A stretch of DNA of 64,000 nt from Akkermansiaceae bacterium (GTDB lineage Bacteria > Verrucomicrobiota > Verrucomicrobiia > Verrucomicrobiales > Akkermansiaceae), in NCBI GenBank assembly GCA_903908495.1, contig CAIVSK010000088.1:1-64000 (forward strand). Direction: 5' to 3'. The position numbers and the translations under genes were made by a program. Positions 478-30,400 of this stretch are shown piece after piece (within the stretch, counting starts at the first letter, position 1; every line of letters starts with the position of its first letter). The notes beneath the pieces are model-generated. The model searched no databases and was not told the origin of the DNA. It worked only from the letters and a program-made list of their open reading frames with translations.

Positions 478-618
478 GAGGTTATTGATTATTAGTTATC
501 AGGAAAGAGGCCAGGGAAAAGTTGGGAGAGTTAGCGGAGTTCCTGGAGGCGGGTGGAGGGCGAAAGGGAAGTGTGACTATTAACCAATAACCGATAACCG
601 ATAACTCATAACCAATCA
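478..618. mobile_element. Gene-less heptamer-bounded inverted element between nuoI and nuoJ (element A)
   Basis: Left arm ggttatt-gattatt-agttatc; right arm ccaataa-ccgataa-ccgataa-ctcataa-ccaatca (period 7, inverted relative to the left arm). Fills the whole nuoI stop to nuoJ start gap. Confidence 0.6.
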
Positions 619-1185
619 CTACTTCAGTTCATTCCATTTGTTGACGAGACCGGTGCGGACGCCTCCGATTTGATAGAGCTTGTCCTTGTGGTGGACCATT
701 TCCTTGCGGCTTAGGCCGGTGATGACGTAGTCCTTGCGCAGGAAGATGGCCTGTTCGGGGCAGACTTCCTCGCACATGCCGCAGTAGATGCAGCGGATCA
801 TGTCGATGTCGAATGCGGCGGGGCGCTTCTCAACCTTGGCCCAGGGGTCGTCGGAGGGGATTTCGCCGGGGATGATCTTGATGGCCTTGGGCGGGCAGAT
901 GAATTCGCAGAGTTGGCACGAGACGCAGCGTTCGCGGCCTTGCTCGTCGGTGACCAGGGCGGGGGCACCGCGGTAGTACTCGGGCAGGTGCTCGTCCCAT
1001 TTTTGCTCCGGGTATTGCATGGTCACGCCGAGGCCGGAGGAGGCGAGGTCCTTGGCTCCCATGGACTTGCCCAGCAGCGACTTGACTGCGTGGGTCATGG
1101 TGAGAAAGAAGCCCTTGAAGAGCGCTGTCAGATAGATGGCCTCGCCGGGGCCGAGCTTGGGGCGTTGGAGTTTTACGACTGCCAT
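619..1185 (-). CDS. nuoI: NADH-quinone oxidoreductase subunit I (2x 4Fe-4S ferredoxin)
   Basis: CVSCQLCEFICPPKAI and CIYCGMCEEVCPEQAI motifs; operon context. Confidence 0.95.
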   Translation of the reverse strand: MAVVKLQRPKLGPGEAIYLTALFKGFFLTMTHAVKSLLGKSMGAKDLASSGLGVTMQYPEQKWDEHLPEYYRGAPALVTDEQGRERCVSCQLCEFICPPKAIKIIPGEIPSDDPWAKVEKRPAAFDIDMIRCIYCGMCEEVCPEQAIFLRKDYVITGLSRKEMVHHKDKLYQIGGVRTGLVNKWNELK

Positions 1186-1230
1186 GGGAGGGGGATTTAG
1201 CGGTTCTCTGTGAGCGGATCGGGGGCGGGA

Positions 1231-2484
1231 TCAGGCGCGGAGGATGGTGGGCTTGGCCTCGGAGGCTCTGGCGACCCAGATGATGGCCGCGGTGACGATG
1301 ATGAGCAACACGGCGCCGATGCCGGTGATGGCGATGGTGAGGAACGGGGCGGCCACGATCAGGGCGGCGAGGAAGACATTGACGAGGGCGGCCTCGAAGA
1401 AGACCACCCAGCCGAGTTTCATGAGTTGGTCGTAGCGGAAGCGCGGGATGGTCCAGCGCACCAGGATGAAAAACAGGATGAATGCTACCACCTTGGCGAG
1501 GAAGATGGCCAGGTGAATGAAGCCGCCGAAGCCGAAGCCGCCGAGGCTGAGGTTGGAGATCCAGGAGTCGGTGCCGAAACCCAACGACCAGCCGCCTAGG
1601 AAGATGGTGACGATGAGTGCGGAGCCGATGACCATGGCGGCGTACTCGCCCATGAAGAACATGGCGAATTTCATCGAGGAATATTCGGTGTGATAGCCGC
1701 CGACGAGTTCAGTTTCGCACTCCGGCAGGTCGAATGGCATGCGGTTGGTTTCCGCAAAGATGGAAATGGTGAAAATCAGGAACGACACCGCGGCCGGGAA
1801 CCAGAACAGCAGCTTGGACGATAGAGTATGGGTGGCGTCATGGCCCCACAGCGGCAGCAGCAACCAGCCGTGCTCGGCCTGTTGTTGGACGATGGTGCTG
1901 AGGTTGAGATCGCCGAAGTAGATGAGCACCGGGATGATCGAGAGGCCCATGGCGATCTCGTAGGAGATCATTTGGGCGGTCGAGCGGATGCCGCCGAGGA
2001 AGGGGAACTTCGAGTTGGACGACCAGCCGGCGATGGCGATGCCGTAGACGGTTAGTGATGCGACCGAGAAGATGAACAGGGGGCCGATGTCAAGATCGGC
2101 GATGACGAGCTTTTCGGTGTGGCCGAAGAGCGTGATGGGAGTGCCGAAGGGAATCACGCAGGCGGTGATGAGGGCCGGGGCCACGGTGAGCGCGGGGGCC
2201 AGCCAGTAGAACGCCTTGCGCACATGTTTGGGCGTGAAATCCTCCTTGAGAAAGAGTTTGATGCCATCGGCAACCGGTTGGATCAGTCCGCCGAGGCCAA
2301 GGATGCTGCAATCTTTCTTGAAGCCGAACAGGGTGAGGGGAATGCCCACCCGGTTGGGGCCGACGCGGTCCTGGATGATGGCGCAGAAGCGCCGCTCGAA
2401 AAAGACCGAGACCGGAACCAGCGGCAACACCACGCAGAACGTCAGCGCGATGATTTTGATGATGAGGATGAGGAGGAGGAGCAT
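1231..2484 (-). CDS. nuoH: NADH-quinone oxidoreductase subunit H
   Basis: Multi-TM protein with QDRVGPNRVG, ETNRMPFDLPECETELVGGYHTEYSSMKFAMFFMGEYA and PRFRYDQLMKLGW signatures. Confidence 0.96.
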   Translation of the reverse strand: MLLLLILIIKIIALTFCVVLPLVPVSVFFERRFCAIIQDRVGPNRVGIPLTLFGFKKDCSILGLGGLIQPVADGIKLFLKEDFTPKHVRKAFYWLAPALTVAPALITACVIPFGTPITLFGHTEKLVIADLDIGPLFIFSVASLTVYGIAIAGWSSNSKFPFLGGIRSTAQMISYEIAMGLSIIPVLIYFGDLNLSTIVQQQAEHGWLLLPLWGHDATHTLSSKLLFWFPAAVSFLIFTISIFAETNRMPFDLPECETELVGGYHTEYSSMKFAMFFMGEYAAMVIGSALIVTIFLGGWSLGFGTDSWISNLSLGGFGFGGFIHLAIFLAKVVAFILFFILVRWTIPRFRYDQLMKLGWVVFFEAALVNVFLAALIVAAPFLTIAITGIGAVLLIIVTAAIIWVARASEAKPTILRA

Positions 2485-2983
2485 TGGTTATTGGGAAGAT
2501 GGGTTATTGGTTATGGGTTATTGGTTATTGGGAAGATGGGGATGTGGCTCAGCATTCTCTTTGGCGGCGCGGCGCAGGTAGGAGATGTAACCGTTGGTGA
2601 GCTTGACGGCGGTGCTGATGAGGGCCCGGCCCTCGGTGAGAAGGGATGTTTCGATCAGATTTTCGTCGTTGGCCGTGATGAGATGATCGAGAATTTCCCA
2701 AACGGAGCCGCGCGAGTTGGAGCAGAATTTGGCGTTGTCGAGGTAATGGAACCGGCCGTAGCCCTCGGCGATATTCGCGGTGGTTGACCGGGACGCACGG
2801 ATCAATTGATCGGTCAGGCGGTAGATCTCCTCCTTTGGCAGCAGTGGCACGACCTTGCCGCGCACGAAAACGCGGAGCGCCCGGCATGCTTGCCAGCATT
2901 CCAAGTCCTCGAAAGATCTGAGCGGTTCGTCGTGCATTTTTCTTCCCAATAACTCTTAACCAACAACCCTTAACCAATAACCA
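2485..2983. mobile_element. Heptamer-bounded inverted element carrying a four-helix-bundle gene (element B)
   Basis: Left arm TTATTGG-TTATGGG-TTATTGG-TTATTGG (2504-2531); right arm CCAATAA-CTCTTAA-CCAACAA-CCCTTAA-CCAATAA-CCACTAA-CCGTTAA (2946-2994). Complementary orientation; gttattgggaaga / tcttcccaataac inverted ends; 4HB ORF inside. The right array runs past the nuoG stop codon at 2984-2986. Confidence 0.75.
2518..2937 (-). CDS. Four helix bundle protein (TIGR02436 / S23-IVP-like)
   Basis: MHDEPLRSFEDLECWQACRALR...LPKEEIYRLTDQLIRASRSTTANIAEGYGRFHYLDNAKF...SVWEILDHL; NIAEGYGR hallmark. Stop codon lies inside the heptamer array. Confidence 0.9.
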   Translation of the reverse strand: MHDEPLRSFEDLECWQACRALRVFVRGKVVPLLPKEEIYRLTDQLIRASRSTTANIAEGYGRFHYLDNAKFCSNSRGSVWEILDHLITANDENLIETSLLTEGRALISTAVKLTNGYISYLRRAAKENAEPHPHLPNNQ

Positions 2984-4741
2984 CTAACCGTTAATCACCC
3001 CCGCGGCGATGCGGGCGCGTTCGTTTTCGAGGAGGGGGATTTTGTAGCCGGTGTCGATGAGCGGGATGCCGGCGTTGGTGATTTTTGCCAGGTCGAGGCC
3101 GGTGAAGGCGGGGATGGTGGCGGCGAGTTGGGTGAAGATGTCCTCGAGATTGTGGATGGCGGGGTCCTCGCCGGTGATGGCGCGGATGAGGTCGCGCAAC
3201 ATTTCCCAATCATCGCGGGCGTTGCCCGGCGTGGCGGTGGCGCGGTTGAGGCGCTGCAGGCGGCCGCTCAGATTGACCATCGAGCCGCGCTTTTCGCTGA
3301 AGGCCGCGGTGGGCAGCACCAGGTGGGCGGCGTCGGCGGTCGGGTTGGCGAGCAGGTGGGTGTGGAGCAGAAACGCGAGCCGGCCGAGGTCTGCGGCCGT
3401 GAAGCCGGCATCGCTGATGATGTCTTCGCCGAGGACGATGAGTGCCTTGATGGAGCCGGCGCGCACGCCGTTGCGGATGCCGTCGAGGGCGGCGTAGGGG
3501 TCCTCGGTTGCCAGGACGAGTTTGGCACCGCTGGTGTTCGGGTTGCGGTCGGCGGCAATGAGCAGGGCGTCGGGCTCGGCGTAGCGGGGGACCAGCGCGA
3601 GGTGAGGCGTGCCGAGTTTTTGGGCGAGGATGCGGGTGAGGTGGAGTTCCTCGTTGGTCATGCGGGCGGAGGCGATGACGGCGATTTGATCCGGGGCGAC
3701 GGCCTTGAGCTGCGGGGCGATGATTTGGAGGGCCTCGGCCCAGGTCGCTTGGCGGTGGCGGGTGCCGGCCTTGGCGAGCGGTTCGGTGAGGCGGGCGGCG
3801 CTATCGATGTAGTGGAAATTGAGGCGGTGGGAATCCGGCATCCAATCCGAGTTGACGTCGTTGTTGCGGCGCGGGGTGATGCGGTGGATGGTGTTTTCGC
3901 GGGTCCACACGGTGATATTGGAGCCGGTGCCGCAGTTCACATCGATGGTCGGCGTTTCCTTGAGGAACCACACCCGCATCTGAAAACGGAAATCGTTGGC
4001 GGTGAGCGCGCCGACCGGGCAGAGGTCCACCGTGTTGAGCGAGTAGTTGGAATCCAACAGGTGCCCCGGATGCACCGTCAGGGTGGTGTGGGTGCCGCGC
4101 TGGGTGAAGCCGAGGACCGGCTCGCCGGCCACTTCGTCCATGAAGCGGATGCACCGGCTGCACAGGATGCAGCGCTCATCGTCGAGGCGGACGCGCGGGC
4201 CGATGGCGACGTTTTTGGGCTTCTTGACCTTCATATCGGCGAAGCGCGACACGCCGCGGCCGTGGCTGACGGAATTTTCCTGCAGGCGGCATTCGCCGGC
4301 CTGGTCGCAAATCGGGCAATCCAGCGGGTGATTGATCAGGAGAAACTCCATCACGCCCGCCTGGCAGGATTCGACGAGCTTGCTGGTGGTGCAGATGCCC
4401 ATGTTTTCGCTCACGGTATTGGCGCAGGCGATGACGGCGCGCGGACTCCACGTGATCGGCTCGTAGCCGAGGGTGTCGCGCTGCGGCTCCTGGCCGGGGG
4501 CGGGGCGGGGGGGCATGCCGACTTGCACCAGGCACATGCGGCAATTGCCCGAGGGGGTCAATTTCGGGTGGTAGCAATAATGGGGGACGGCGACCTGCAC
4601 TTGGCGGCAGGCTTCGATCATCCGTGTGCCTTTGGGAAATTGATGCCAGCAGCCGTTGATCTGCACATTGACCATGCCGATGGCGGCAGCAAGGTCTTTG
4701 GGCTGCCTGATTTCTAAAGTTGCCGAAGGGGTGTCGCTCAT
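2984..4741 (-). CDS. nuoG: NADH-quinone oxidoreductase subunit G
   Basis: 2Fe-2S and 4Fe-4S cysteine motifs (HYCYHPKLTPSGNCRMCLV, CPICDQAGECRLQ, CILCSRCIRFMDEV). Confidence 0.93.
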   Translation of the reverse strand: MSDTPSATLEIRQPKDLAAAIGMVNVQINGCWHQFPKGTRMIEACRQVQVAVPHYCYHPKLTPSGNCRMCLVQVGMPPRPAPGQEPQRDTLGYEPITWSPRAVIACANTVSENMGICTTSKLVESCQAGVMEFLLINHPLDCPICDQAGECRLQENSVSHGRGVSRFADMKVKKPKNVAIGPRVRLDDERCILCSRCIRFMDEVAGEPVLGFTQRGTHTTLTVHPGHLLDSNYSLNTVDLCPVGALTANDFRFQMRVWFLKETPTIDVNCGTGSNITVWTRENTIHRITPRRNNDVNSDWMPDSHRLNFHYIDSAARLTEPLAKAGTRHRQATWAEALQIIAPQLKAVAPDQIAVIASARMTNEELHLTRILAQKLGTPHLALVPRYAEPDALLIAADRNPNTSGAKLVLATEDPYAALDGIRNGVRAGSIKALIVLGEDIISDAGFTAADLGRLAFLLHTHLLANPTADAAHLVLPTAAFSEKRGSMVNLSGRLQRLNRATATPGNARDDWEMLRDLIRAITGEDPAIHNLEDIFTQLAATIPAFTGLDLAKITNAGIPLIDTGYKIPLLENERARIAAGVING

Positions 4742-4912
4742 GGGTCGTAAAGCGGGCCGGGCGTGGTGCGCGTGAGACGTCCGGTGCTAGTCGGCGGCCA
4801 ATATGTGGCCCCGCGCCGGACCCGGCAAGCGTGGTTTTGGGAAAAATATCGGTGGACTGGTTGGTCCGTGATTGCAGTGGCAGCGGGCGGGAAAGGGTGC
4901 TAGCGTCCCGCC

Positions 4913-5959
4913 GTGGATGCATTGATTCATCATCTGGAACAGGAACAGGAGCTTTCGTCACGCGAGGTCGAGGTGGCCGCCAACTTGCTGCTCAATCCAG
5001 CGGTGGAAGACGCCAAAAAGGAACGTTTACTCGAAGCGCTCGCCAACAAAGGTGAGACGCCGGCCGAAATTGCCGGGTTTGTGGAGGTCTTCCTCGAGCG
5101 GGCGGTGGACCCGCATCTGGGTTTGCTCGATCTGGACGGGCCCACCCTCGATCTGTGCGGCACCGGCGGCGACCAGCTCAGTTTGTTCAATGTCTCGACC
5201 ACTGCGATGTTCGTGGCTGCGGCGGGCGGTGCGATTGTCGTCAAGCACGGCAACCGCGGCATCACTTCGCCCAGTGGCGGAGCCGATGTGCTGGAAGCGT
5301 TGGGCATCCGCATTGATTTGCCTGCCGAGGGGTTTCGCCGCTGCCTGGAAAAGGCGGGGGTCGGCTTCATGTTTGCCCCGGCGTACCATCCGGCGTTCAA
5401 GGCCGTCGCGGGAGTTCGCAAATCGTTGGCCGCCCGCGGTGTGCGCACCATTTTCAACATCATCGGGCCCTTGCTCAATCCCGCCCAGCCGCAATGCCAG
5501 CTCGTCGGCGTGTTTGCCCGCGAATTGTGCCCGGCATTTGCCGAAATTCTGGAAAACCTCGGCCGCGACAGTGCCTGGGTGGTGCATGGCACCACCGGCG
5601 ACGGCCGCTCGGTGGATGAGGTGAGCTTGATGGGCTCCACGCGCATCTGCAAGGCCGGCACCTATCAAGATTTGGCGGACGAGGAGGTTCGGCCGCGCGA
5701 TTTCGGTCTGCAGCATGCCGAGATCAAGGATCTGCAGGGTGGTGATGCCAAGGCCAATGCGGCAATTCTGGAAGCCATCCTTGCCGGCCGCGACACCGGT
5801 CCCAAGCACGACATGGTGTTGCTCAATGCCGGGGCCGCCCTCGCCTGCGCCGGCTTGGCCGACGACCTTGGCGATGGCATTGAGGTGTCGCGTGAATTGC
5901 TCGCCAGCGGTGCCGCCCTGGCGCGTCTGCGCCTGTTGCAAAAGGCGGCGAAACGCTGA
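4913..5959 (+). CDS. trpD: Anthranilate phosphoribosyltransferase
   Basis: DLCGTGGDQLSLFNVSTTAMFVAAAGGAIVVKHGNRGITSPSGGADVLEALG and GPLLNPAQPQ motifs; GTG start. Confidence 0.95.
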   Translation: MDALIHHLEQEQELSSREVEVAANLLLNPAVEDAKKERLLEALANKGETPAEIAGFVEVFLERAVDPHLGLLDLDGPTLDLCGTGGDQLSLFNVSTTAMFVAAAGGAIVVKHGNRGITSPSGGADVLEALGIRIDLPAEGFRRCLEKAGVGFMFAPAYHPAFKAVAGVRKSLAARGVRTIFNIIGPLLNPAQPQCQLVGVFARELCPAFAEILENLGRDSAWVVHGTTGDGRSVDEVSLMGSTRICKAGTYQDLADEEVRPRDFGLQHAEIKDLQGGDAKANAAILEAILAGRDTGPKHDMVLLNAGAALACAGLADDLGDGIEVSRELLASGAALARLRLLQKAAKR

Positions 5960-5972
5960 GTGGCCCGTCCCT

Positions 5973-8690
5973 ATGCAACTCGTCTTTCGCGTTAATTACC
6001 GCACGGTGCCCGGCCAGTCGCTGTGGCTCAAGTTCGCGGCCCTGTTCACCGCCAGCGGCGTGCGCGTCGAACAGGTGCTGCCACTGCGCTGGCTCAACCC
6101 GCAGCAATGGGAAGGCAGCGTGGAATTGGAGGGAACCGGTCCCTTGCGCTTGTCCTATCACTATCAGCTGCGCCAGGAAAGCAACGGCTTGCAGTTGGAC
6201 GAGTGGTTGGCGCCACGGATCGTCGAGGTGGATCCCGCGGCGCGGGATTGCGTGGTGCTGGCGGACACCTGGTGTTCGGCAGGCACTCCCGACCATGCTT
6301 TGGAAACCAAGCCGTTCGCGGTGTTGTTGCCCAAACGCGGTCCGTTCGGGCCGCCCGCGGCCACCGCCGTTGCGGCCAACCACGAGTTTATGTTGCGGAT
6401 GGCGGCGGTGCCGCCGGGGCAGGCGCCCTGTCTGTTGGGCAGCGTGCGCGAGCTCGGCGACTGGGATGGCCAGCGGGCGCTGCCGCTGGAGGAAATTGCC
6501 GCCAACGTCTGGCGGGTGGCGCTGAGCCTGCCCGCGGCCGGCCACATCGAATACAAGTATGGACTGTGTGAGGCGGCGAGCGGGGACCTGCTCGCCATCG
6601 AGCAAGGCCCCAACCGGGTGCTTGCGAGCCTCCCCTGCGTGCCGCGGCAATGGACGCGGGTGAGCGACGAGGGCTTTGCCCGCAACCCCGATGCGTTGTT
6701 CCACGGTTGCGGGGTGGCGGTGCCCGTTTTCTCCCTGCGCAGCGCCCGCGGCCTCGGCGTTGGCGAGTTTGCCGACCTCGCCGCGTTGGCCGATTGGGCT
6801 GCTGCGACCGGGCTGCGGATGATTCAGATCCTGCCGGTCAATGATACCACCGCAGCCGGCGACTGGACAGATTCCTATCCGTATTCTGCCATCAGCGGGT
6901 TTGCCCTGCATCCGCTCTATCTGCGGATCGACGACCTGCCCTATCCGATGCCGGCGGAGTTTGCAGCGCAGGGCACCGCTGCGCGCCAACGCCTCAATCC
7001 GCTGCCGACGGTGGATTATGAGGAGGTGATGCGGGTCAAGCGCAACCTCACCCGCCAGATCTATCAGCACCATCAGGCCGCCCTGATGGCCGATGCTGGC
7101 ATTCACAAGTTCATTCAGGTCAATCGCGAGTGGTTGTTGCCCTACGCGGTGTTCTGCCTGTTGCGCGAGCGCTTCCAGACGGCCGACTTCACCTGCTGGG
7201 GCGAGTGGTCGAGCTACGACCGGGAGCGGGTGGATGGGCTGGCCAGCACGTCTGCCGCGAGCTGGCCGGAGGTTTTCTATCACATCTGGCTGCAATACGA
7301 ACTCGACCGCCAGTTGGCCGCCGCAGTGGGCCACATGCATCTACGCGGCATCGTCCTCAAGGGGGATTTGCCCATCGGTATCGACCGCCATTCCGTCGAG
7401 GCCTGGTCGTTGCCGCAGCTGTTCAAGATGTCCGCGCAGGCCGGCGCGCCGCCCGACGCCTTCGCCGTCAAGGGCCAGAACTGGGGGTTTCCGACCTATG
7501 ACTGGGACGCGATGCGGCGCGACGGCTATGCCTGGTGGCGCGCGCGTTTTGCCCATTTGGGCCGCTATTTCGATGCCTATCGAATCGACCACATCCTGGG
7601 GTTTTTCCGTATTTGGCAGATTCCGTTGGACCAAGTGGAAGGGATCATGGGGTGGTTTGAGCCGGCCCTTCCGGTGACCCTTGCCGAGTTGCACTCCCGC
7701 GGCATCCCGTTTGATTTCTGCCGTTTTTGCCGGCCCTACCTGCGCGAGCACTCGTTGGCCCAGCGCTTCGGCGAGGACGTCGGGTTTGTTAAAGACCAAT
7801 TCCTTGAGCCTTGCGGATATGACTATTGGAAGTTGCGCGATGAGGTGTCCACCCAGCGGCGGATTGTGGAGCATTTCGGCCCGGCGACGGAGCCCGGCGC
7901 TCCGGAGTGGGAGCGATTCGCACGGATCCGCGACGCCCTGTTGGATTGCGTGAGCGAAGTGCTGTTGTTCGAGGTGGCGGGCAGCGCCGCGAGCCTGTTC
8001 CACCCGCGTTGCCAGATGCGGACGACGCGTTCCTATCAGGAGTTGGACGACGACGTGAAGTGGCGTCTCGATGAGTTGTATGATGACTACTTTCACCGGC
8101 GGCAGGAGGATTTCTGGCAGGCTTGCGGCTATGAGAAGCTGCCGGTGATGCGGCAGGCCAGCAGCATGCTGTTATGCGGCGAGGATCTCGGCATGGTGCC
8201 GGCCTGCGTGCCCGGGGTGATGGCCGAGCTTGGCTTCCTCTCGCTCGAGATCCAGCGCATGCCCAAAACCCGCTACTCCGACTTTTCCCATCCGGCGGAC
8301 GCGCCCTATCTGAGTGTCGTCAGCCCGTCCACCCATGACATGCCCACGCTGCGCGAATGGTGGCGCGAGGACGGCAAACTCACCGGTCATTTCGCGTGGA
8401 GCATGTTGGGCGTGGATTTCCCCTCGCTCAACTTGTCCGGCGAGACCGCCGCGCGCATCATCGCGCTGCACCTCCACTCGCCGGCCATGTGGGCGCTCGT
8501 CCCGCTGCAGGACTTGCTGGCGATGGACGAATCCATCCGCCATCCCGAGCCCGCCGCCGAGCGCATCAACGTGCCCGCCATCATGCCCCATTACTGGCGC
8601 TACCGGATGTTGCTCGACTTGGAGCAACTCGCCGCCGCCGGGGAATTCAATCTGCGCCTGCGCGACATGGTCAGCGCAGCCCGACGCTGA
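5973..8690 (+). CDS. malQ: 4-alpha-glucanotransferase with N-terminal starch-binding (CBM20-like) domains
   Basis: GH77 motifs (LPIGIDRHSVEAW, FDAYRIDHILGFFRIWQIP, GEDLGMVPACVPGVM, SPSTHDMPTLREWW); N-terminal CBM20-like repeats. Confidence 0.9.
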   Translation: MQLVFRVNYRTVPGQSLWLKFAALFTASGVRVEQVLPLRWLNPQQWEGSVELEGTGPLRLSYHYQLRQESNGLQLDEWLAPRIVEVDPAARDCVVLADTWCSAGTPDHALETKPFAVLLPKRGPFGPPAATAVAANHEFMLRMAAVPPGQAPCLLGSVRELGDWDGQRALPLEEIAANVWRVALSLPAAGHIEYKYGLCEAASGDLLAIEQGPNRVLASLPCVPRQWTRVSDEGFARNPDALFHGCGVAVPVFSLRSARGLGVGEFADLAALADWAAATGLRMIQILPVNDTTAAGDWTDSYPYSAISGFALHPLYLRIDDLPYPMPAEFAAQGTAARQRLNPLPTVDYEEVMRVKRNLTRQIYQHHQAALMADAGIHKFIQVNREWLLPYAVFCLLRERFQTADFTCWGEWSSYDRERVDGLASTSAASWPEVFYHIWLQYELDRQLAAAVGHMHLRGIVLKGDLPIGIDRHSVEAWSLPQLFKMSAQAGAPPDAFAVKGQNWGFPTYDWDAMRRDGYAWWRARFAHLGRYFDAYRIDHILGFFRIWQIPLDQVEGIMGWFEPALPVTLAELHSRGIPFDFCRFCRPYLREHSLAQRFGEDVGFVKDQFLEPCGYDYWKLRDEVSTQRRIVEHFGPATEPGAPEWERFARIRDALLDCVSEVLLFEVAGSAASLFHPRCQMRTTRSYQELDDDVKWRLDELYDDYFHRRQEDFWQACGYEKLPVMRQASSMLLCGEDLGMVPACVPGVMAELGFLSLEIQRMPKTRYSDFSHPADAPYLSVVSPSTHDMPTLREWWREDGKLTGHFAWSMLGVDFPSLNLSGETAARIIALHLHSPAMWALVPLQDLLAMDESIRHPEPAAERINVPAIMPHYWRYRMLLDLEQLAAAGEFNLRLRDMVSAARR

Positions 8691-8735
8691 CGGGATTTGC
8701 TTGCGGGGCGGGAGGGATTGGCGCACATATTGGCT

Positions 8736-10943: not shown

Positions 10944-11020
10944 GCAGGGGTGAGGCGTCGGCGGGTTGCCCTGGATGGGCATGAATCCGCGCCGAGCTGC
11001 CTGCAGGCACCGGCGGGCGG

Positions 11021-11455
11021 TCAGGATGCGAGCGGGTTCCAGACTCTATCGAAGCCAAAACCTTGGAAGTGTTTGGCGTTGGCGGTGGCGAAGTGAGTGA
11101 CGCGGAAGTGCCTGAGCGTCACCGCGAGGCGGATGTCGTAGATCCGGCGCGCCGCGGCGCTGGTGCCAGCGTGATGCCACACTTCGTCCATGAGGCCAGC
11201 ACCCGGGTAGTCGAGGCACAGCCAAGCGGGGTTGTGGCGCAGGTTGTCAATTTTTCGGACGGCTTCTTTTGCGCCGAGAGGCTTGGTGCAGATGAGAGGA
11301 TTGCGCAGGAGGGTATAGACCTCCATCAAGACGAGTTCGCAAAGGGCAAAGTCCGGGTCGCCGACTTTGGATTCTAGAAACGCGCGGGCAGACGGGTGGT
11401 CAGCGTGGGATGCTTCCAGCGCGGGGAAAAGGATGTTGGTGTCGCAGACAGTCAT
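11021..11455 (-). CDS. PIN-domain (VapC-like) toxin
   Basis: MTVCDTNILFPALEASHADHPSARAFLES; paired with upstream antitoxin-like ORF. Confidence 0.85.
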   Translation of the reverse strand: MTVCDTNILFPALEASHADHPSARAFLESKVGDPDFALCELVLMEVYTLLRNPLICTKPLGAKEAVRKIDNLRHNPAWLCLDYPGAGLMDEVWHHAGTSAAARRIYDIRLAVTLRHFRVTHFATANAKHFQGFGFDRVWNPLAS

Positions 11456-11473
11456 GGGCCCGTGGGGTGATGG

Positions 11474-11746: not shown

Positions 11747-11893
11747 GAGTGGAATTGGTGGCGCCATCAAAGTAATGGAGGCGGGGCGGAGTGTCAATGG
11801 CACCAGTGCCCGAACCTTCGGTGGCTGGCCAATCCGGGGAATGTTGGCACTTGGGGCTTGGCAGGCAGCGGCAAGTCCGGCACGCTCAGCCGC

Positions 11894-12208: not shown

Positions 12209-12212
12209 GGGA

Positions 12213-13151: not shown

Positions 13152-15536
13152 TTAGCGGAGCTTGACGCCAAGTTGGCTGGTCAGGGCGGTGAGCAGGCGC
13201 TGGTGGGCGGCGTCGACCTCCTCGGACTTGAGGGTGCGCTCGGCGGCGCGGTAATGGAAGCGATAGGCGAGGGACTTGCGATCGGCCGCCAGCTTGACGC
13301 CGGCGGGATCGGTGAACACGTCGAAGCATTCATAGGCCACCAGCAAGGGTTCGGCCGCCTTGTCGATGACCGCCTCAAGCTGGGCGTTGGCGGTGGCCAG
13401 CGGCAACTCCATCGCGGCATCGCGCGACGAGCCGGGGAATTGCGGCAGATCCACCACGTGATTGATGCCGCCGAGCAGCTTGCGCAGTTTGGCCAAGTCC
13501 AGCTCGGCCACGTACACCGGCGCGGTGAAGTCGAGCTCGCGTTCGCGGGCGGGAGCGAGCCGGGCGAAAACCCCGACGATCTGGGCGTCCACCTTGATGT
13601 CGCAAGCGAGCACAAAGCCCGGCCGATCCTTGGGCGTGAAGCGGATCTCACGCCCGCCAAGCAGGCTCGAAAGGATGGCTTTGAGGTCGTACAGGTCGGC
13701 ATCGCGCGCGGGTTGCGCCCAACCGGACGGGCTGGTGGGGCCGGCCAGCAGGATCGCCAGCGAGTCACTTTCCTGGTCCTTCGCCTTGCCGCCGCCGGCA
13801 TTGCGGAACACCCGCCCCAATTCAAAAAACCGCAGCGATTTCACTTGCTGGCCGACGTTTCTGGCCGCCGAGGCGAGCAGGCCCGGCACCAGGCTCGGGC
13901 GCATCACCGCGTGATCCTCGCTGAGCGGCAACTTCACCCGGATGAGGTCGCCATCCAGCAGCGGCCGCGACAGCAACGCATCGCCCACCTGGTGGCCGGC
14001 GATGAGCTTGATGGTCTGGCATTCGTACAAGCCAAGCGCCGCCAAGCGCCGCCGCATCACCATGTCCGCATCGTAGGCGGCATCACTCGGGCTGGCCGGC
14101 ACAAAAGTGCCTGCCAAGCGCGACGGCACGTTGTCGAGTCCGTGGACGCGGGCGATTTCCTCCACCAGGTCGATGTGGCGCTGCAGGTCGGCGCGGAACG
14201 ACGGCACCTCCCAGGTGGCGTCCGCCAACTCGGTCAGGCCGAGCCGCGTCAGGATGGCAGCGGCGTCCCGCAGGCTGATCGAGCCGCCCATGAGTTGGTT
14301 GAGCTTGGCGGCATCGAGGGCGACCGGATGGGTCAGCACCGGAGCCTCGCCTGCCACCAGCGTGGTGGGCTCTGCCGTGCCGCCGGCGGTTTCCAAAATG
14401 AGTTTGACCGCCAGCGCCGAGGCGGTGAACACGCCCGCCGGATCCACCCCGCGCTCGAAGCGGTAGGACGAATCCGAGGACAACGCGGTGCGGCGCGACG
14501 TGCGGCGGATGCCCGCAGGGGTGAAATACGCCGATTCCAGCAATATATCGTGGGTTGCTGCGGTCACGCCGCTGTCGGCACCGCCCATCACGCCGCCGAG
14601 GGCGAGGGCGCGGCCGGAGCCATCGCCGATGACGAGGTCGCCGGTGGTTAGAACATGTTGGGTGGCGTCGAGGGCGAGAAACACCTCGTCCTGCGCGGCG
14701 TGGCGCACGACGATGCCGCCGCTGAGTTTGGCCGCATCGAAGGCATGCAGCGGCTGGCCGAGCTCGTGCAACACGTAGTTGGTGACGTCGACGATGTTGT
14801 TGATCGGCCGCTGGCCGATGGCTTCCAAGCGTTGCTTGAGCCAGGCCGGACTGTCCTTGACGGTGACGCCGGAAATGCGCACCGCGGTGTAGAGCGGGCA
14901 GGCGGCGGGGGCGTCGATGCGGATGGAAGAAGTGGGCGAGACGCCCACGCTCCTTGTTGGGATATCCAGCAGTTTGAGCGGGGTTTTGAGCAAGGTGGCC
15001 AGCTCGCGGGCCATGCCGCGGTGGCTGAGGAGGTCCGGGCGGTTGGGGGTGACCTCCAACTCGAGCAAGACATCGGAGTCGAACATCTCCTTGAGCGGCA
15101 TGCCGATCCGGGAATCCGGCGGCAGGATGAGCAAGCCGTCCTCGCCGGCCGGCAGGCCGAGTTCCGCGGCGGAGCACAGCATGCCGCGCGATTCCACCTT
15201 GCGCATCACCGTCTCACTGATGGTGAAACCACCGGGCAGCGCGGTGCCCGGCAACGCGCAGGGGACCTTGTCGCCCACCTTGTAGTTTTGCGCGCCGCAC
15301 ACAATCTGGCGCCAGCTGCCTTCGCCCGCGTCCACATGGGTGACCTTGAGGCGGTCGGCGTGCGGGTGTTGGACAGCCTCCATCACCTGCGCCACCACGA
15401 TTTTTTCCGAGGTGATGCCTTCGATGACGATGCCTTCAACCTCCACTCCGGCAAAGGTGAAAAGGTCGTCGATTTCCTTGATCGATTTGCCAGTCAGATC
15501 GAGGTGGGTGGCCAGCCAATTGAGGGAGATGTTCAT
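13152..15536 (-). CDS. pheT: Phenylalanine--tRNA ligase beta subunit
   Basis: MNISLNWLATHLDLTGKSIKEIDDLFTFAGVEVEG start; tRNA-binding domain, B3/B4 and B5 domains, C-terminal FDX-ACB domain. Confidence 0.95.
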   Translation of the reverse strand: MNISLNWLATHLDLTGKSIKEIDDLFTFAGVEVEGIVIEGITSEKIVVAQVMEAVQHPHADRLKVTHVDAGEGSWRQIVCGAQNYKVGDKVPCALPGTALPGGFTISETVMRKVESRGMLCSAAELGLPAGEDGLLILPPDSRIGMPLKEMFDSDVLLELEVTPNRPDLLSHRGMARELATLLKTPLKLLDIPTRSVGVSPTSSIRIDAPAACPLYTAVRISGVTVKDSPAWLKQRLEAIGQRPINNIVDVTNYVLHELGQPLHAFDAAKLSGGIVVRHAAQDEVFLALDATQHVLTTGDLVIGDGSGRALALGGVMGGADSGVTAATHDILLESAYFTPAGIRRTSRRTALSSDSSYRFERGVDPAGVFTASALAVKLILETAGGTAEPTTLVAGEAPVLTHPVALDAAKLNQLMGGSISLRDAAAILTRLGLTELADATWEVPSFRADLQRHIDLVEEIARVHGLDNVPSRLAGTFVPASPSDAAYDADMVMRRRLAALGLYECQTIKLIAGHQVGDALLSRPLLDGDLIRVKLPLSEDHAVMRPSLVPGLLASAARNVGQQVKSLRFFELGRVFRNAGGGKAKDQESDSLAILLAGPTSPSGWAQPARDADLYDLKAILSSLLGGREIRFTPKDRPGFVLACDIKVDAQIVGVFARLAPARERELDFTAPVYVAELDLAKLRKLLGGINHVVDLPQFPGSSRDAAMELPLATANAQLEAVIDKAAEPLLVAYECFDVFTDPAGVKLAADRKSLAYRFHYRAAERTLKSEEVDAAHQRLLTALTSQLGVKLR

Positions 15537-16089
15537 GAAGAGATAGTGGATAGTGGATCGTGGATCGTGGATTGTGGATCGTGGATAGAAGAGGTCGGCG
15601 CTATGGGAGTTTTTCGTTGTGGTGGAGTTCCACGCCTCGGATGAAGAGATACATGGATTTTGACAACTGTGTGAGCCGCTCATGCAATGACGTGAAGAGT
15701 TCCGTGTCCCGAAGCGATTCGGTCTCTTTTAGGGTCTCGAGATGGTCAATGGTTTCGAGAGCTGATGCATAGGCATAGTCGAGGAAACGGATATACTCCG
15801 GCTTGTGGCGGCGGCGGCCATAGCCTTCGACGATATTGGATTTCACCGACTTCATGCTGCGGCGGATCTGGGCACCTTCTTCGTAGAGTTCGAATTTCGG
15901 CAGAATTTTCAATGTCATTTGATGGATCTCGACCACCAGCTCGCGCGCCAGCTCCCAGATCCGCAGCTTTTTGTAACCAAATGTCTCCGTGTCCATCTTC
16001 TATCTTCTATCTTCTATCTTCTATCTTGTATCTTTTATCCACGATCCACGATCCACGATCCACGATCCACGATCCACGATCCACGATCC
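15537..16089. mobile_element. Heptamer-bounded inverted element carrying a four-helix-bundle gene (element C)
   Basis: Left array TAGTGGA-TAGTGGA-TCGTGGA-TCGTGGA-TTGTGGA-TCGTGGA-TAGAAGA (15544-15592); right array 4x TCTTCTA, TCTTGTA, TCTTTTA, 7x TCCACGA (15996-16086). Reverse complements of each other; occupies the full pheS-pheT gap. Confidence 0.8.
15601..15996 (-). CDS. Four helix bundle protein (TIGR02436 / S23-IVP-like)
   Basis: [65 protein letters not shown]...[17 protein letters not shown] hallmark. Its start codon overlaps the first heptamer. Confidence 0.92.
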
Positions 16090-20143: not shown

Positions 20144-20165
20144 TGCGATTGAAGCGGATAGGGGG

Positions 20166-21446: not shown

Positions 21447-21478
21447 GGCGGGGCGGGGTGGGTGGGGCTGGCGCGGGA

Positions 21479-22402: not shown

Positions 22403-22411
22403 GGGTCTTCA

Positions 22412-24712: not shown

Positions 24713-25821
24713 GCTGCGGAAAAAGTGGTTTCAATGGCGGCGCACACGCGCTCGGCGGCGTCGGCAATGCCGAGACTGCTGGCCGCCTGGCTCATCCGGC
24801 TGCGGGCGGCCGGATCCCGTAAAATCGAGGTGGCCAGGGCGGCGAGTTTGTCCGCGTCGAGCTCGCGTTCCTGCACCAGCACGGCGGCACCGGCGCGGGC
24901 GTAGACCTCGGCGTTGCGGGTTTGGTGATCGTCGGCGGCGAATGGATAGGGCACCAGGATCGAGGGTCGGCCGGCCAGCGCGATCTCAGTCAGACTCGAG
25001 GCTCCGGCGCGGGCAATGATGAGGTCGGCGATGGCGTAGGCGGATGGCATTTGGTCACAGAAACCGAGCACCTGATAGCCGTCGCGGCCGGCGGCGATTT
25101 GTGTGACGCGGGCACAATCGGAAGTGCCGGCGATGTGCAACACCTGGACGTCTGGCGGCCAGGTGGCGGCGGCCTGGGCGCAGAGTTCGTTGAGGCGGCG
25201 GGCCCCCTGGCTGCCACCGGTGATCACCACGGTCGGCCGCCCGCCATCCAGACCAAAGCTCGCCGCGGCGCTCGCCCGCTCAGGCAGCTGCGCCATTTCC
25301 GCGCGGGCCGGCGTGCCGGTGACGACACTGGCGCGGCCCGGGAAAAACGCCCCGGCCGCCTCCAACCCGAGGAAAATGCGGTCGCAAAACCGGCTGGTAA
25401 GGACGTTGGCGCGGCCCGGGCGGGCGTTGGAATCGTGGATGAACGTCTTGAGGCCCAGCACATGGCCGGCGTACACCGGCGGCAGCGAGGTGAAGCCCCC
25501 CATGCCCAGCACCGCATCCGCACCGAATGCGTGGATCACCCGTTTGCAGTGGCGGACCGACTTCCACAGACGCCACAAAAACGGCAGCATGCGCGGCGAT
25601 AAGGTCGGCGGCTTGGCCACCGCCGGCAGCGTCGCAAAGCGCAGCCGCGCATATTTCGCGCTCGCTTCCGCGTCCACCGGCTTCTCCGATATCAATAATA
25701 ACGCCTCGTGCCCGCGCGCCTCCATCGCCTCCGCCACCGCTATGCCGGGGAAGAGGTGACCGCCTGTGCCGCCACAGGCAATGAGGAGTTTACGGGACTT
25801 GAGCACAAACGATGAAATCAC
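24709..25821 (-). CDS. murG: UDP-N-acetylglucosamine--N-acetylmuramyl-(pentapeptide) pyrophosphoryl-undecaprenol GlcNAc transferase
   Basis: KLLIACGGTGGHLFPGIAVAEAM, ITGGSQGARRLNEL, ARAGASSLTEIALAGRPSILVPYPFAADDHQ. GTG start uncertain (25806 or 25821). Confidence 0.92.
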   Translation of the reverse strand: MISSFVLKSRKLLIACGGTGGHLFPGIAVAEAMEARGHEALLLISEKPVDAEASAKYARLRFATLPAVAKPPTLSPRMLPFLWRLWKSVRHCKRVIHAFGADAVLGMGGFTSLPPVYAGHVLGLKTFIHDSNARPGRANVLTSRFCDRIFLGLEAAGAFFPGRASVVTGTPARAEMAQLPERASAAASFGLDGGRPTVVITGGSQGARRLNELCAQAAATWPPDVQVLHIAGTSDCARVTQIAAGRDGYQVLGFCDQMPSAYAIADLIIARAGASSLTEIALAGRPSILVPYPFAADDHQTRNAEVYARAGAAVLVQERELDADKLAALATSILRDPAARSRMSQAASSLGIADAAERVCAAIETTFSAA

Positions 25822-25933
25822 TAACTGCTGCAGGCTTGCACAAAACCATTCTTGCCACGCCTTGGGGGAGATTTGAAACAAATCTTGATAATCCGGCAAT
25901 CCAGAAAGTGGGCGGATAGAAAATATTTTCCTG

Positions 25934-26170
25934 CTACAAGTGCCGGCGGACCTGATCGGTGACGTACCATTCTTCCACCTTGAGGCGGGCCCACGGGGTC
26001 TTGCGCAGAAACGTGAGGCTGGATTTGACGCTCGGATCAAACAGAAAACAACGAATCGGAATGCGCCGCGCCATTTCTTCCCACCCGTGCTGGTCCACCA
26101 AATACATCACAATCGATTCCAAGGTGATGCCATGCAACGGGTCATTGGGATGGGATGCGGGCGAGGGCAT
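25934..26170 (-). CDS. VF530-family (DUF2132) protein
   Basis: [62 protein letters not shown]. Confidence 0.85.
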
Positions 26171-26445
26171 GCAGCGGCGGGGCTGGGGGTTGGCGGGCGG
26201 CCTTGCGCTGCCGGCAACCGCCGCACACCTGCAAAACCACCGCACCCCAAGTAAACTCCAATCGCATCCCCCTGCACAAGCATTATCCGCAGCAACCGCT
26301 CCAGCCGTCCACCCCGTGGAATCCCCCCCACCACCGCCCCCGAAAAAATCCCCTCTGGAATATAATTTGTTCGCTTGAACACTTTTTGCTTGCAAGGCCG
26401 CCGATTCCGGCGTAAAAGACAGATGCATTCTAACCAATCAATCCG

Positions 26446-26964
26446 ATGAAAGACACTGCACTCGATCCCACCACGGCCACCGCCACCCCCAGCGCATCCC
26501 TCACCGAGCACGCCACCTCCAGCACAACACCCACCGAACGCGCCGCCGATTATGCCATCTACAAGCCCAACTCCCGCGGCAACGGCGGCGTCCTGCGCTT
26601 CAGCCTCAACCCGGCGAAGGCCGCCTTGTTCGTCGAAGCCGCCGCCCAGTGCGGCGATAAACAGTTCGACTGGGACAATAAAATCATCATGAAGTGGGGT
26701 CTCTCCGATGTCGGTTCGGTGCTGGCCACCCTCCAGGCCCGCCAGCCTCAGGCCAAGCTCTTCCACCAAACCGATAAAGCCAACAGCGCCTTCGACCTCA
26801 CCCTGCGTGACGACCCCGAACGCGCCCCTTACGCCCTGAGCATCTCCCGTCAGGACACCGCGGATAAATCCTTGCGCAAGGTCGCCATCCCCCTCACTCA
26901 CGCCGAAGCTGCGGTGCTGGAAGCCGCCCTGCGCGTCGCGGTCGGCCGCCTCATCGGTTGGTGA
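26446..26964 (+). CDS. Whirly/PC4-fold-like putative ssDNA-binding protein
   Basis: KQFDWDNKIIMKWGLSDVGSVLATL...KLFHQT...APYALSISRQ...KVAIPLTHAEAAVLEAALRVAVGRLIGW matches the spacing of plant Whirly (YDWEKKQ.FALS..EVG...FFHD...VPVT.AEF.V...A...A.P.I.GW). Confidence 0.55.
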   Translation: MKDTALDPTTATATPSASLTEHATSSTTPTERAADYAIYKPNSRGNGGVLRFSLNPAKAALFVEAAAQCGDKQFDWDNKIIMKWGLSDVGSVLATLQARQPQAKLFHQTDKANSAFDLTLRDDPERAPYALSISRQDTADKSLRKVAIPLTHAEAAVLEAALRVAVGRLIGW

Positions 26965-26979
26965 CCCGCCCTTCGGAGC

Positions 26980-27079
26980 GGCGGACTCCGATCCGCCGTG
27001 GCCCATGGTGAGCCAATGCGCGGTGGATAACCGCTTCCCATTGACCCATCATGGTCTTGGGCGATTCGGCAGATCGCCC
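26980..27079. repeat. BIME/MITE-like palindromic repeat, copy 1
   Basis: gcggactccgatccgccgtggcccatggtgagccaatg...cattgacccatcatggtcttgggcgattcggcagatcgccc; same architecture as the copy at 33803-33902. Confidence 0.65.
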
Positions 27080-27349
27080 CCCGCTTGGCGGACGTCTCCT
27101 GCGCTTGGCATGGGCAGGGGGACGGGGCTGTCCCCGCTCCGTCTCGGGCCACGCCACGCACAAGACAAAGCTGCCAAGCGGCCTCCCTCGCTCCCTGTTG
27201 GTTGCCGCGGGGCCGATCCTGCCGCCGTCCCGGCGCTTCAGTCTGGTTGTTAGAAACAGCCCTTGCCCTGGCAATCAGGCAACCGGTGCCTCTCACCCAA
27301 GGTGGAGGCATTCGATTTCAAACTCCGGCGGCAAATTCAAGCCGCCGTT

Positions 27350-27727
27350 TCAAGCCTCTGCGGTTTCCACAGCGGCGCTCGTTTCCTCGGCAGCGGCGGT
27401 TTCCTCAGAAGTCGTTTCTTCGGCAGCGGTTTCCTCGGCAGCGGTTTCCTCGACGAAGGTTTCCTCGGCGGCGGTATCGACCGCGGAATCGATGCCGACT
27501 TCAGCCTCGGTGGCCTTGGTGAGTTTTTTGGCAAGCTTTTTGGCAGGAGCCTTTTTGGCAAGCTTTTTGGCAGCGGGTTTCTTCGCGGCGGCAGCCTTGG
27601 CACCGGCGGACTTGGTGGAAACCGCCTTGTGTTTCACTGTCCCGCCAAGCTTCGCCTGCTCGTGCTTGCGCTTCAAATAATCCGCACGACGACGGCGTTT
27701 GATGATTTTATTCGATTGTTGGCCCAT
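27350..27727 (-). CDS. Small basic histone H1-like protein with acidic TAAEET-repeat tail
   Basis: MGQQSNKIIKRRRRADYLKRKHEQAKLGG...AAAKKPAAKKLAKKAPAKKLAKKLTK...EETAAEETAAEETTSEETAAAEET. Confidence 0.7.
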   Translation of the reverse strand: MGQQSNKIIKRRRRADYLKRKHEQAKLGGTVKHKAVSTKSAGAKAAAAKKPAAKKLAKKAPAKKLAKKLTKATEAEVGIDSAVDTAAEETFVEETAAEETAAEETTSEETAAAEETSAAVETAEA

Positions 27728-27849
27728 GGTTGGTGGCCACTGGGGTAAGCCCGAATGACGTGCGGAGCAAGCGCAAAACGCAAAAGAGTTTGCCAACCCC
27801 TGCTTTCGCATTCGACAAGCCCCCCTTGTCCGGCGCAAATTCCTGCCCC

Positions 27850-29010
27850 ATGGCAGGCCTCATCATCGCTCCCCGCGCACGCATTTTTCACGGACACGAG
27901 TGGATTTACTCCACCGAGATCAGGAAAACCTTCGGCGACCCGCAACCGGGCGACGTGATCACCCTCAAGGATTTTCGCGACCGGCCGCTCGGTTCCGCCA
28001 TCTACAATCCTCACTCCCAAATCGTCGCCCGCCGGTTTTCCCGCCGCCGCCAAGACCTCGACGTGGATTTTTTCACCCGCCGCATCCGCCAGGCCATCGA
28101 GCACCGCCGCCGCTGCGGCCTGGATGAAATGCTCTGCCGCCTGGTCTGGAGCGAATCCGACGGCATGCCCGGCCTCGTCATCGATCGCTACGGCCCCCAC
28201 CTCAGCGTCCAAACGCTGACCTTGGCCATGGATCAGCGCCGTGAACTCATTCGCGATGCGCTGGTGGCCTTGCTCGCCCCCACCTCCATCGTGCTGCGCA
28301 ACGATTCCCCGTTCCGCAAGGCCGAGGGCATGGAGCCCGGCATCGAAATGCTCTACGGCGAAAACCCCGGCCCCTTCGTCGTCCGCTCCAACGAACTGGA
28401 TTTTGAAATCGACCTCTACGACGGCCAGAAAACCGGCCTCTACCTCGACCAACTTCAATCCCACGCCGACGTCGCCCGCCTCGCCAAAGGCAAGCGGGTG
28501 CTCGATTGTTTCACCAACCAGGGCGGCTTCGCCCTGGCCTGCGCCAAGGCCGGGGCCGCCAAGGTCACCGCCGTGGACGTCTCCGCCAGTGCCTGTGAGG
28601 CAGCCCGCCACAACGCCACGCGCAACGGTCTGGACATCACGGTGCTCGAACACAACGTTTTTGATTTCCTCAAGCACGCCGCGCCGGATTACGACCTCAT
28701 CATTCTCGATCCGCCCAGTTTCACCCGCAACAAGAAGACCCTCATGGACGCCATGCGCGGCTATAAGGAAATCCACCTGCGCTCGCTCAAGTTGCTAGAC
28801 AAGGGCGGCCTCCTCTCCACCTTCTGTTGTTCCCATCACGCCTCCCGCGAACTCTTCCTCGAGAACCTCGTGGATGCCTCCGTCGATGCCAAAAAATCCC
28901 TCCGCCTCGTCTCAGAACACGCCCAGCGCGCCGATCACCCGGTCCTCATCTCCATCCCGGAGACCAGTTACCTCAAAGGCTTCACCGTCGAAGTCATCGC
29001 CGCGAGATAG
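27850..29010 (+). CDS. rlmI: Class I SAM-dependent rRNA methyltransferase (RlmI-like, PUA + MTase)
   Basis: IIAPRARIFHGHEWIYSTEI PUA start; FYDGQKTGLYLDQ-like DLYDGQKTGLYLDQ; VLDCFTNQGGFALACAKAGAAKVTAVDVS; DLIILDPPSFTRNKKTLMDAMRGYKEIHLRSLKLL. Confidence 0.85.
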   Translation: MAGLIIAPRARIFHGHEWIYSTEIRKTFGDPQPGDVITLKDFRDRPLGSAIYNPHSQIVARRFSRRRQDLDVDFFTRRIRQAIEHRRRCGLDEMLCRLVWSESDGMPGLVIDRYGPHLSVQTLTLAMDQRRELIRDALVALLAPTSIVLRNDSPFRKAEGMEPGIEMLYGENPGPFVVRSNELDFEIDLYDGQKTGLYLDQLQSHADVARLAKGKRVLDCFTNQGGFALACAKAGAAKVTAVDVSASACEAARHNATRNGLDITVLEHNVFDFLKHAAPDYDLIILDPPSFTRNKKTLMDAMRGYKEIHLRSLKLLDKGGLLSTFCCSHHASRELFLENLVDASVDAKKSLRLVSEHAQRADHPVLISIPETSYLKGFTVEVIAAR

Positions 29011-29094
29011 GGGGTAGACACAAGACTTGAAGCGGCCAGAGGCTGAACGCGAGACGGCTTGGGCCTGCGGGGAACGCCCCAGCGCCCCCGGTTT

Positions 29095-29209
29095 AGCCAC
29101 AGCGGCGCGGCGGGCTGCGCCCTTCTCGCCGCACTCCATGCATTGGCACGCATGGGCCGCGCAGGTGTGGAGTGCGCGTGGCAAGCGCCAGCGCGACACC
29201 GCTTTGGCT
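29095..29209. repeat. Nested palindromic intergenic repeat
   Basis: Outer AGCCACAGCGG (29095-29105) / CCGCTTTGGCT (29199-29209), 10/11; inner perfect CGCACTCCA (29130-29138) / TGGAGTGCG (29168-29176). Confidence 0.65.
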
Positions 29210-29239
29210 CGATGCCGGCGTGCACCGCAGCCCCCGGCC

Positions 29240-30280
29240 TCAGTAGATTTCGATATTCCGGGCTTCGAAGCCGCGCAGTGCGGCACGAAACTCGGTGGCG
29301 GCCTGGCGGCGCTTGACGGCTTCCAGCGCACTGAGGATTTCCGGCTTGGCTTGCTCGAAGCTGGCCGCCTCGGCGGGTTTGCGCGCGGTGACCTCGATGA
29401 GGTGCCAACCGAGCTTGCTGCGCAGCAGCGCGGGCTGATGCAGCGGCATCGCAAACAGCGGTCCGGCCAAATCCTCCGGCAGCCGCGCGCGGGTCATCCA
29501 GCCAAGCGCGCCGCCGCGATTCTTGGTCAGCGGGTCCTCGCTGACTTCGCGGACCAGCGTGCCAAAGTCTTTGGTTCCGGCGCTCAGGGCGGCCAACGCG
29601 GTGACCAGCTGTTGTTTCACCTCGTCGGGATTGAGATCAAGGGTGGGTCGGAAAACATGGCGGGCCTCGATGCGCTCGGGTGTGGCGATTTGGCCCTGGT
29701 TTTGCTCGAACCATTGACGCGCCTCGTCATCGGTGACGCCGATAAGCGGGGCGAGGCGCGACTCCACGTATTTGTCTTGCTGAATATGGGCGGCGAGGCG
29801 CTCGCGCAACGCCTGCCCGCTGGTGATGCCTTGGGATGCCATCGCGGAGTCCAGTGCTTCTTTGTTAGGAAAACCGGCGGTGAAGCGCTCCATTCGCGCG
29901 GTGATTTCCTCATCCGTGACTTTGAGTTCGGCGGCGTTGGCGCTGGCTTTGCTGCGGAGCAGTTCGTGATCGATCAGGTCATCGAGGGCGGCGCGGCGCA
30001 TGCGGGCAAGCTCCTGCGGGTCCAGCCCGGCCAGCGGCTTGCCGTCGCGCCACGAGCGCTCCTGTAGCGCCCGCTCGAGCTGGCTGCGGTGGATGTTGTA
30101 GGCGGCCACCCGCGCGACGACCGGGTCGGCGGTGGTGGCAACGGCTGCGGTGCCGCTGTGCTTGCCTTGCTTGATGAAGCGGAGAAATGGGCCATCGAAG
30201 ACGAACAAATCGCATAGCACGTAGGCAATGGTGAGTCCGTAGATGCCGAAGCGCAGCGCCGTTTTAGCAGAGTGGGTCAT
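29240..30280 (-). CDS. Peptidylprolyl isomerase (SurA/PpiC parvulin-like), membrane-anchored
   Basis: N-terminal TM (MTHSAKTALRFGIYGLTIAYVLCDLFVF); ARHVFRPTLDLNPDE, FGTLVREVSEDPLTKNRGGALGWMTRARLPEDLAGPLFAMP...KLGWHLIEVTAR. Confidence 0.88.
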   Translation of the reverse strand: MTHSAKTALRFGIYGLTIAYVLCDLFVFDGPFLRFIKQGKHSGTAAVATTADPVVARVAAYNIHRSQLERALQERSWRDGKPLAGLDPQELARMRRAALDDLIDHELLRSKASANAAELKVTDEEITARMERFTAGFPNKEALDSAMASQGITSGQALRERLAAHIQQDKYVESRLAPLIGVTDDEARQWFEQNQGQIATPERIEARHVFRPTLDLNPDEVKQQLVTALAALSAGTKDFGTLVREVSEDPLTKNRGGALGWMTRARLPEDLAGPLFAMPLHQPALLRSKLGWHLIEVTARKPAEAASFEQAKPEILSALEAVKRRQAATEFRAALRGFEARNIEIY

Positions 30281-30285
30281 GGGGG

Positions 30286-30400
30286 AGAGACAGAAGACCG
30301 CTTCGCTGTAAGACAGAAGACAGAAGACAAGAGAATCGGTCGAATCCGACAGAATTCTTTTCTTCTGTCTGGGAGCGCAGCGGTCTTCTGTCTTCTTTCC
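30286..30400. mobile_element. Gene-less heptamer-bounded inverted element (element D)
   Basis: Left arm agacagaagaccgcttcgctgtaagacagaagacagaagac; right arm tcttctgtctgggagcgcagcggtcttctgtcttc. AGACAGAAGACCGCTtCGCT / rc AGACAGAAGACCGCTgCGCT, 19/20. Fills the ldt stop to ppi start gap. Confidence 0.65.

Follow-up and report, generated by a model that had tools for sequence, protein, structure and literature searches.

The four-helix-bundle (4HB) proteins of the S23/IVP family (PF05635/TIGR02436) are often encoded in multiple copies per genome and, to our knowledge, form an orphan family whose function is so far not known. The closest described system is the intervening sequence (IVS) of 23S rRNA in Coxiella and Leptospira, in which an inverted-repeat stem carries, in its loop, the open reading frame (ORF) of a PF05635 protein. 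In Coxiella the S23p ORF is preceded by two to three tandem GACAGAT units, whose copy number depends on the strain (PMC4990558); a passage of the same paper cites the Xanthomonas S23p structure as a homopentamer forming a pentameric ring. A second set of heptamers, the intergenic GGGAATC repeats of Xanthomonas, occurs as about 70 inverted pairs per genome, for which the passages on them in PMC4692102 offer no explanation. Here we analyze a 64,000-nucleotide stretch of an Akkermansiaceae bacterium (contig CAIVSK010000088.1; hereafter the window), taken from an assembly of 6.19 Mb in 432 contigs whose named relatives in the family include Luteolibacter and Haloferula. It contains four elements, A to D, an element being a 4HB gene, or its ORF-less relative, together with its heptamer arms. 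The element lies in the gap that separates the stop codon of one operon gene from the start codon of its neighbor, with the 4HB gene enclosed by inverted, AG-containing heptamer arrays. We propose, with a probability of roughly 0.6, that A to D are the intercistronic counterpart of the 23S IVS, belonging to a widespread class built on the S23/IVP 4HB gene that has ORF-bearing and ORF-less forms. As far as searches of open-access papers show, these elements have not been described as a class so far.

The features concerned are as follows.

464..618, (-) strand: element A, ORF-less, at the nuoI/nuoJ junction; 5' arm 581-616, 3' arm ~479-502, TTGGTTA-type word
2485..2983, (-) strand: element B, at the nuoG/nuoH junction; 5' arm ~2940-2989, 3' arm 2485-2534, word GGTTATT
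2518..2937, (-) strand: 4HB gene of element B, PF05635 (E 2e-21); ATG at 2937, TTG at 2949 also open
15536..16089, (-) strand: element C, at the pheS/pheT junction; 5' arm 15992-16089, 3' arm 15542-15592 (GATCCAC)
15601..15996, (-) strand: 4HB gene of element C, 131 aa, PF05635 profile match (E 5e-25)
30286..30400, (-) strand: element D, a hairpin without an ORF, flanked by an L,D-transpeptidase-like gene and a downstream gene; word GAAGACA

Self-comparison of the window at lag 7 (score at least 11) found arrays at 581-612 (A), 2499-2531 (B), 15542-15586 and 15992-16089 (C) and 30310-30329 (D), and nowhere else; the same scan gave one array at period 8 and zero at periods 5 and 11, and Tandem Repeats Finder, used as a cross-check, concurred except for one weak row at 35359. 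The sequence-only reading of this DNA had placed inverted period-7 arrays at these four junctions, with TIGR02436-type 4HB proteins encoded in B and C and no such ORF in A and D, all of which is confirmed. The first 5'-arm unit of element B overlaps the nuoG stop codon. In element C the 5' arm is composed of two words, a GTGGATC array (16037-16089) followed by a GAAGATA array (15995-16039), the mirror copy at 15542-15592 corresponding mainly to the former; the two arms align to each other at a score of 41. Predicted RNA folds have z-scores of -2.5 for A, -4.5 for B, -6.7 for C (-201 kcal/mol) and -7.0 for D (-58 kcal/mol), and an Rfam search of the window gave zero matches. The further claim that the heptamer is alike within and different between elements holds in its first part, since the arms of one element match; the second part does not stand as worded, as A and B have one word in common, the GAAGACA of D is one base off the GAAGATA of C, and an AG is shared more widely (see below). 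The fit of the window words to that AG consensus is loose: the GTGGATC and GGTTATT types keep a G and a purine-rich character, and GAAGATA and GAAGACA contain AG. Six relatives (G026, G111, G098, G093, G039 and G009) bear a 4HB element at nuoI/nuoJ, and element A is therefore probably an ORF-less remnant.

The B and C proteins match the PF05635/TIGR02436 profile (S23, "23S rRNA-intervening sequence") above its curated cut-off. An AlphaFold2 model of the C protein (mean predicted local distance difference test score 90) has 2gsc (S23p) as its best PDB match (template modeling (TM) scores 0.82/0.92). The 4HB protein resembles 2gsc and 2rld by both sequence and fold, and bAvd of diversity-generating retroelements (4dwl) more distantly, by fold (TM 0.72/0.84). 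Unlike those retroelements, no reverse transcriptase (RT) lies beside the Avd-like gene, nor is there one on the contig of the window. The ratio of nonsynonymous to synonymous substitution rates (dN/dS) is 0.11-0.17 in three orthologous 4HB groups, and Akkermansia pairs have dN of 0.008-0.033 against dS of 0.07-0.67; the protein is thus under strong purifying selection and its function is maintained. As in the 23S IVS, complementary termini form a stem around the ORF, as judged from arm alignments and predicted folds, and the Coxiella GACAGAT, when rotated, reads AGATGAC and is of the AG type. The differences are that the host here is the mRNA of many operons, the elements lying between protein-coding genes and not within a 23S rRNA gene, that both arms are heptamer arrays, and that the Coxiella ORF is reported as probably not expressed whereas the 4HB protein here is under purifying selection. 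Because the rRNA location is not shared while the protein, the inverted stem and the heptamers are, we place the elements with the IVS kind, as a variant; the link to the 23S IVS, already suggested from the sequence, is supported by the protein family, the inverted arms and the Coxiella heptamers.

Of the 117 genomes of the family, 87 have TIGR02436 4HB genes. Among 74 4HB loci with full flanks from about 60 related genomes, a period-7 array (score at least 9 in either flank) was found at 66%, versus 1.5% of 480 control window pairs from the same 20-kb regions; other periods between 4 and 13 did not exceed 7%, period 14 being the harmonic. A stricter control, confined to gaps between long ORFs, gave period-7 arrays in 24/37 4HB gaps versus 14/241 other same-strand gaps (65% versus 6%) and 2/167 remaining gaps, by which chance is excluded by far for the association of 4HB genes with arrays. 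Inverted period-7 pairs numbered zero in 400 kb from two relatives. The proposed test of inverted heptamers against 4HB genes therefore came out strongly in favor of the association.

The two arms of an element belong together. When the upstream flank was aligned with the reverse complement of the downstream flank, the mean score was 19.2 for an element's own arms versus 8.4 for those of another element; in 20,000 random pairings the highest mean was 9.9. The advantage of own over swapped arms persists when only orthologous elements of a single junction are compared (nrdB/nrdA, 23.9 versus 11.6, p=5e-5; metK/ahcY, 19.4 versus 11.6, p=5e-5), which shows that the arms of one element evolve together: the word alters between species and both arms follow. 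In a common frame, 72 units give the consensus AG[TA]NNNN, in which A and G each reach about 90%, with an information content of 4.22 bits versus 2.98-3.24 for shuffled units. Closely related species differ in array length by multiples of seven, and perfect (CACTCTC)n runs occur. The earlier argument that the ends have no common sequence and must hence be locally generated fails, since the words have an AG core, are inherited per junction, drift jointly and recur in dispersed copies. Its suggested routes fare differently: slippage does lengthen the arrays, as the changes by sevens show, whereas retro-copying found no direct evidence, roughly half of the 4HB-bearing genomes having no RT.

A parallel system exists in the same genomes at GxxExxY genes (TIGR04256, PDDEXK-type; L144-L173), where inverted arrays by array score have period 9 in 8/29 and period 7 in 0/29, with arms that likewise match (21.7 own versus 9.5 mismatched); examples of the period-9 arrays are ACCGCCAAGACGCCAAG and ACAGGATTA. 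These genes use some of the 4HB junctions, namely pheS/pheT (L145, L147, L148, L152) and nuoG/nuoH (L050), where G059 holds a GxxExxY gene. These data bear on the view that the arrays are ordinary slippage-prone microsatellites in permissive intergenic DNA where 4HB genes simply reside. Perfect runs and copy-number change by sevens would suit it, and a passage of PMC4692102 notes heptameric repeats as abundant in bacteria; period-7 arrays are nevertheless found in 6% of other same-strand gaps against 65% at 4HB genes, the arms are inverted and matched around a fixed AG, and GxxExxY genes show period 9, not 7. We consider this view very improbable, and in its random form it is rejected by the enrichment over controls and by the matched arms, also within orthologous junctions.

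Junctions were defined by clustering of neighbors; longest-open-frame orientation is unreliable at high G+C content, so neighbors were named from translations, with Pfam for a few. The 4HB elements occupy at least 34 different junctions, among them the Pfam-confirmed nrdB/nrdA, gyrB/gyrA, DHH gene/truB and MoxR/DUF58 and, from translations alone, metK/ahcY, pyrR/pyrB, cysD/cysN, liv, nuo, sucC/sucD and pheS/pheT. The 4HB proteins of one junction are mostly one clade, and the junction labels change 19 times on the 4HB tree (minimum 14, shuffled mean 39); inheritance is therefore mostly vertical at one junction, with moves and losses. The MoxR/DUF58 clade, for instance, is nested in the nrdB/nrdA clade, and one nuo clade is scattered over several nuo junctions. 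Empty orthologous sites, which had been called for as a check, were found: nuoG/nuoH bears a 4HB element in G000, G053, G082 and G033, a 162-nt ORF-less stretch in G101 and a gap of 24-60 nt in nearly all other relatives. Two different 4HB genes, with different arrays, are found in different species of Akkermansia at a single junction that lies upstream of a rhamnulokinase-like gene (L288-L290 and L284-L287). The cysD/cysN junction bears 4HB elements in Akkermansiaceae (L107, L009, L012) and in a gammaproteobacterium (L365, G369), which suggests recurrent use of the same junctions.

Such long vertical retention at complex-subunit pairs (nrdB/nrdA, gyrB/gyrA, pheS/pheT, cysD/cysN, nuo), together with the strong purifying selection, would also be expected of domesticated regulatory cassettes, whose hairpins tune the stability or translation of the neighbors, whose 4HB protein is a TRAP-like RNA-binding autoregulator and whose mobility is historical only. 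A pentameric ring would suit regularly spaced units, and TAACTGA heptamers have been published directly upstream of start codons (PMC4679880). We regard this explanation as unlikely, as at a given junction most relatives are without the element, degraded and ORF-less copies are common, and the turnover of the words contrasts with the conservation of the protein.

Outside Verrucomicrobiota, 35 4HB loci from Planctomycetota, Desulfobacterota, Bacteroidota, Chloroflexota, Acidobacteriota and others bear arrays of period 7 in 22, period 8 in 9 and period 9 in 7 cases, and their arms match as well (19.1 own versus 9.0 mismatched). Apparently antisense 4HB genes of Spirosomataceae-type Bacteroidota sit at seemingly one shared junction (L215, L224, L226, L227, L231, L233, L240). 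Three or more perfect tandem GGGAATC copies occur in 1/369 gammaproteobacterial genomes (G487; L362, L355, L358, L352), whose only 4HB locus, broken by a stop or frameshift, lies between inverted GGGAATC arrays with accB and accC (read from translations) as neighbors; ORF-less inverted GGGAATC pairs are found elsewhere in this genome. The heptamer of this accB/accC locus is the one given for Xanthomonas in PMC4692102, which treats it as a G-quadruplex-type repeat and, in the passages searched, draws no link to a 4HB gene.

That the elements have two forms, with and without the 4HB gene, had been conjectured from the four junctions and is seen both in the source genome and at an Akkermansia junction. 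The source genome has about two dozen sites with a B-type word at gene junctions, most without an ORF; some are inverted pairs, and several have the inner GGGAAGA/TCTTCCC motif of B (the backward-pattern control for CCAATAA arrays is invalid, as such arrays match the backward pattern as well). Upstream of a gatB-like gene in Akkermansia, the element is intact in G047, G113 and G078, degraded in G038 and G028, and ORF-less in G055/G063 with the same AGAGTGG arrays as the intact ones; the interior of this ORF-less element is found again elsewhere in G063 and G047. There are thus dispersed copies with shared ends within one genome, as in miniature inverted-repeat transposable elements (MITEs) and insertion sequences, and a gene between inverted repeats with dispersed gene-less copies is also the arrangement of RAYT/REP systems (REP-associated tyrosine transposases and their repetitive extragenic palindromes).

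The dispersed ORF-less copies with shared ends, the antisense 4HB copies in Bacteroidota and the correlation between 4HB and Y1_Tnp gene counts (partial rho 0.57) could be accommodated by a DNA transposon or MITE, in which the arrays serve as terminal inverted repeats that contain iterated binding sites, a transposase acts in trans and the 4HB protein is an accessory factor. We nonetheless find this improbable. The 4HB protein is no transposase, and the 4HB elements end in period-7 arrays, which vary from lineage to lineage. The Y1 genes of the same family have palindromes instead of heptamer arrays: 37 Y1 loci carry their own palindromic REP-like repeats, with period-7 arrays in just 5/37. 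No target duplication was seen. Because 4HB counts are correlated with those of GxxExxY and RT too, general mobile load may explain the Y1 correlation. Long inverted palindromic repeats of RAYT/REP type flank Y1_Tnp genes (L394, L396, L403 and others). In genus g16 (G016, G037, G046, G054, G062 and G070), most genomes are without 4HB and Y1 genes, and the exception, G027, has 8 and 10, a natural contrast for tracing a mobilizer.

Several results weigh against regarding the elements as intercistronic IVS counterparts. About one third of the 4HB loci are without a period-7 array at the threshold used, many B-word arrays of the source genome are one-sided, and the link between word and protein across junctions is weak (27/500 permutations were equally strong). 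In some Bacteroidota (Spirosomataceae-type) the 4HB gene appears antisense to both neighbors; operon co-orientation is not universal. No mobilizing enzyme was found among the candidates examined. RT (PF00078) is missing from 44/87 4HB-bearing genomes, the source genome having its matches on other contigs (C13, C428), and was rejected as a necessary mobilizer; the Y1 transposase was rejected since its genes, despite the correlated counts, bear other repeats. Neither a target-site duplication nor an exact insertion boundary could be found, the flanks being too diverged. RNase III cleavage, binding of the arrays by the protein and a mobilizing enzyme are steps that we infer.

From the predicted RNA stems, the matches to 2gsc, 2rld and bAvd and the reported pentameric ring of S23p, we infer an IVS-like life for these intercistronic elements. 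The element would be co-transcribed with its host operon. Pairing of the two arms would give a long RNA stem that RNase III cleaves, much as in the IVS of 23S rRNA, and the element would therefore place little burden on the operon. The 4HB protein, as a pentameric ring like 2GSC, may bind the arrays by contacting each heptamer about once, at the fixed AG, and the complex may help the element persist and, rarely, move by host or other trans machinery. Slippage would alter array length, while hairpin-templated correction would keep the arms matched.

A wider and more tentative reading is that genes for small ring-forming 4HB proteins, with period 7, and GxxExxY genes, with period 9, each between inverted arrays whose unit length follows the protein family, make up a novel class of selfish elements of bacteria that act at the RNA level. 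If true, one mechanism would underlie the GGGAATC repeats of Xanthomonas as well as the 23S IVS, and perhaps also the TAACTGA heptamers and those of cyanobacteria, and the dispersed gene-less copies would be its non-autonomous progeny. Apart from this wider reading, the findings mean that many intergenic heptamer arrays in several phyla belong to an element and are not random microsatellites. The orphan S23/IVP family gains a defined DNA partner, and the separately published puzzles of the 23S IVS heptamers and the Xanthomonas inverted heptamers merge into one question, whether the ring protein reads an AG every seven bases.

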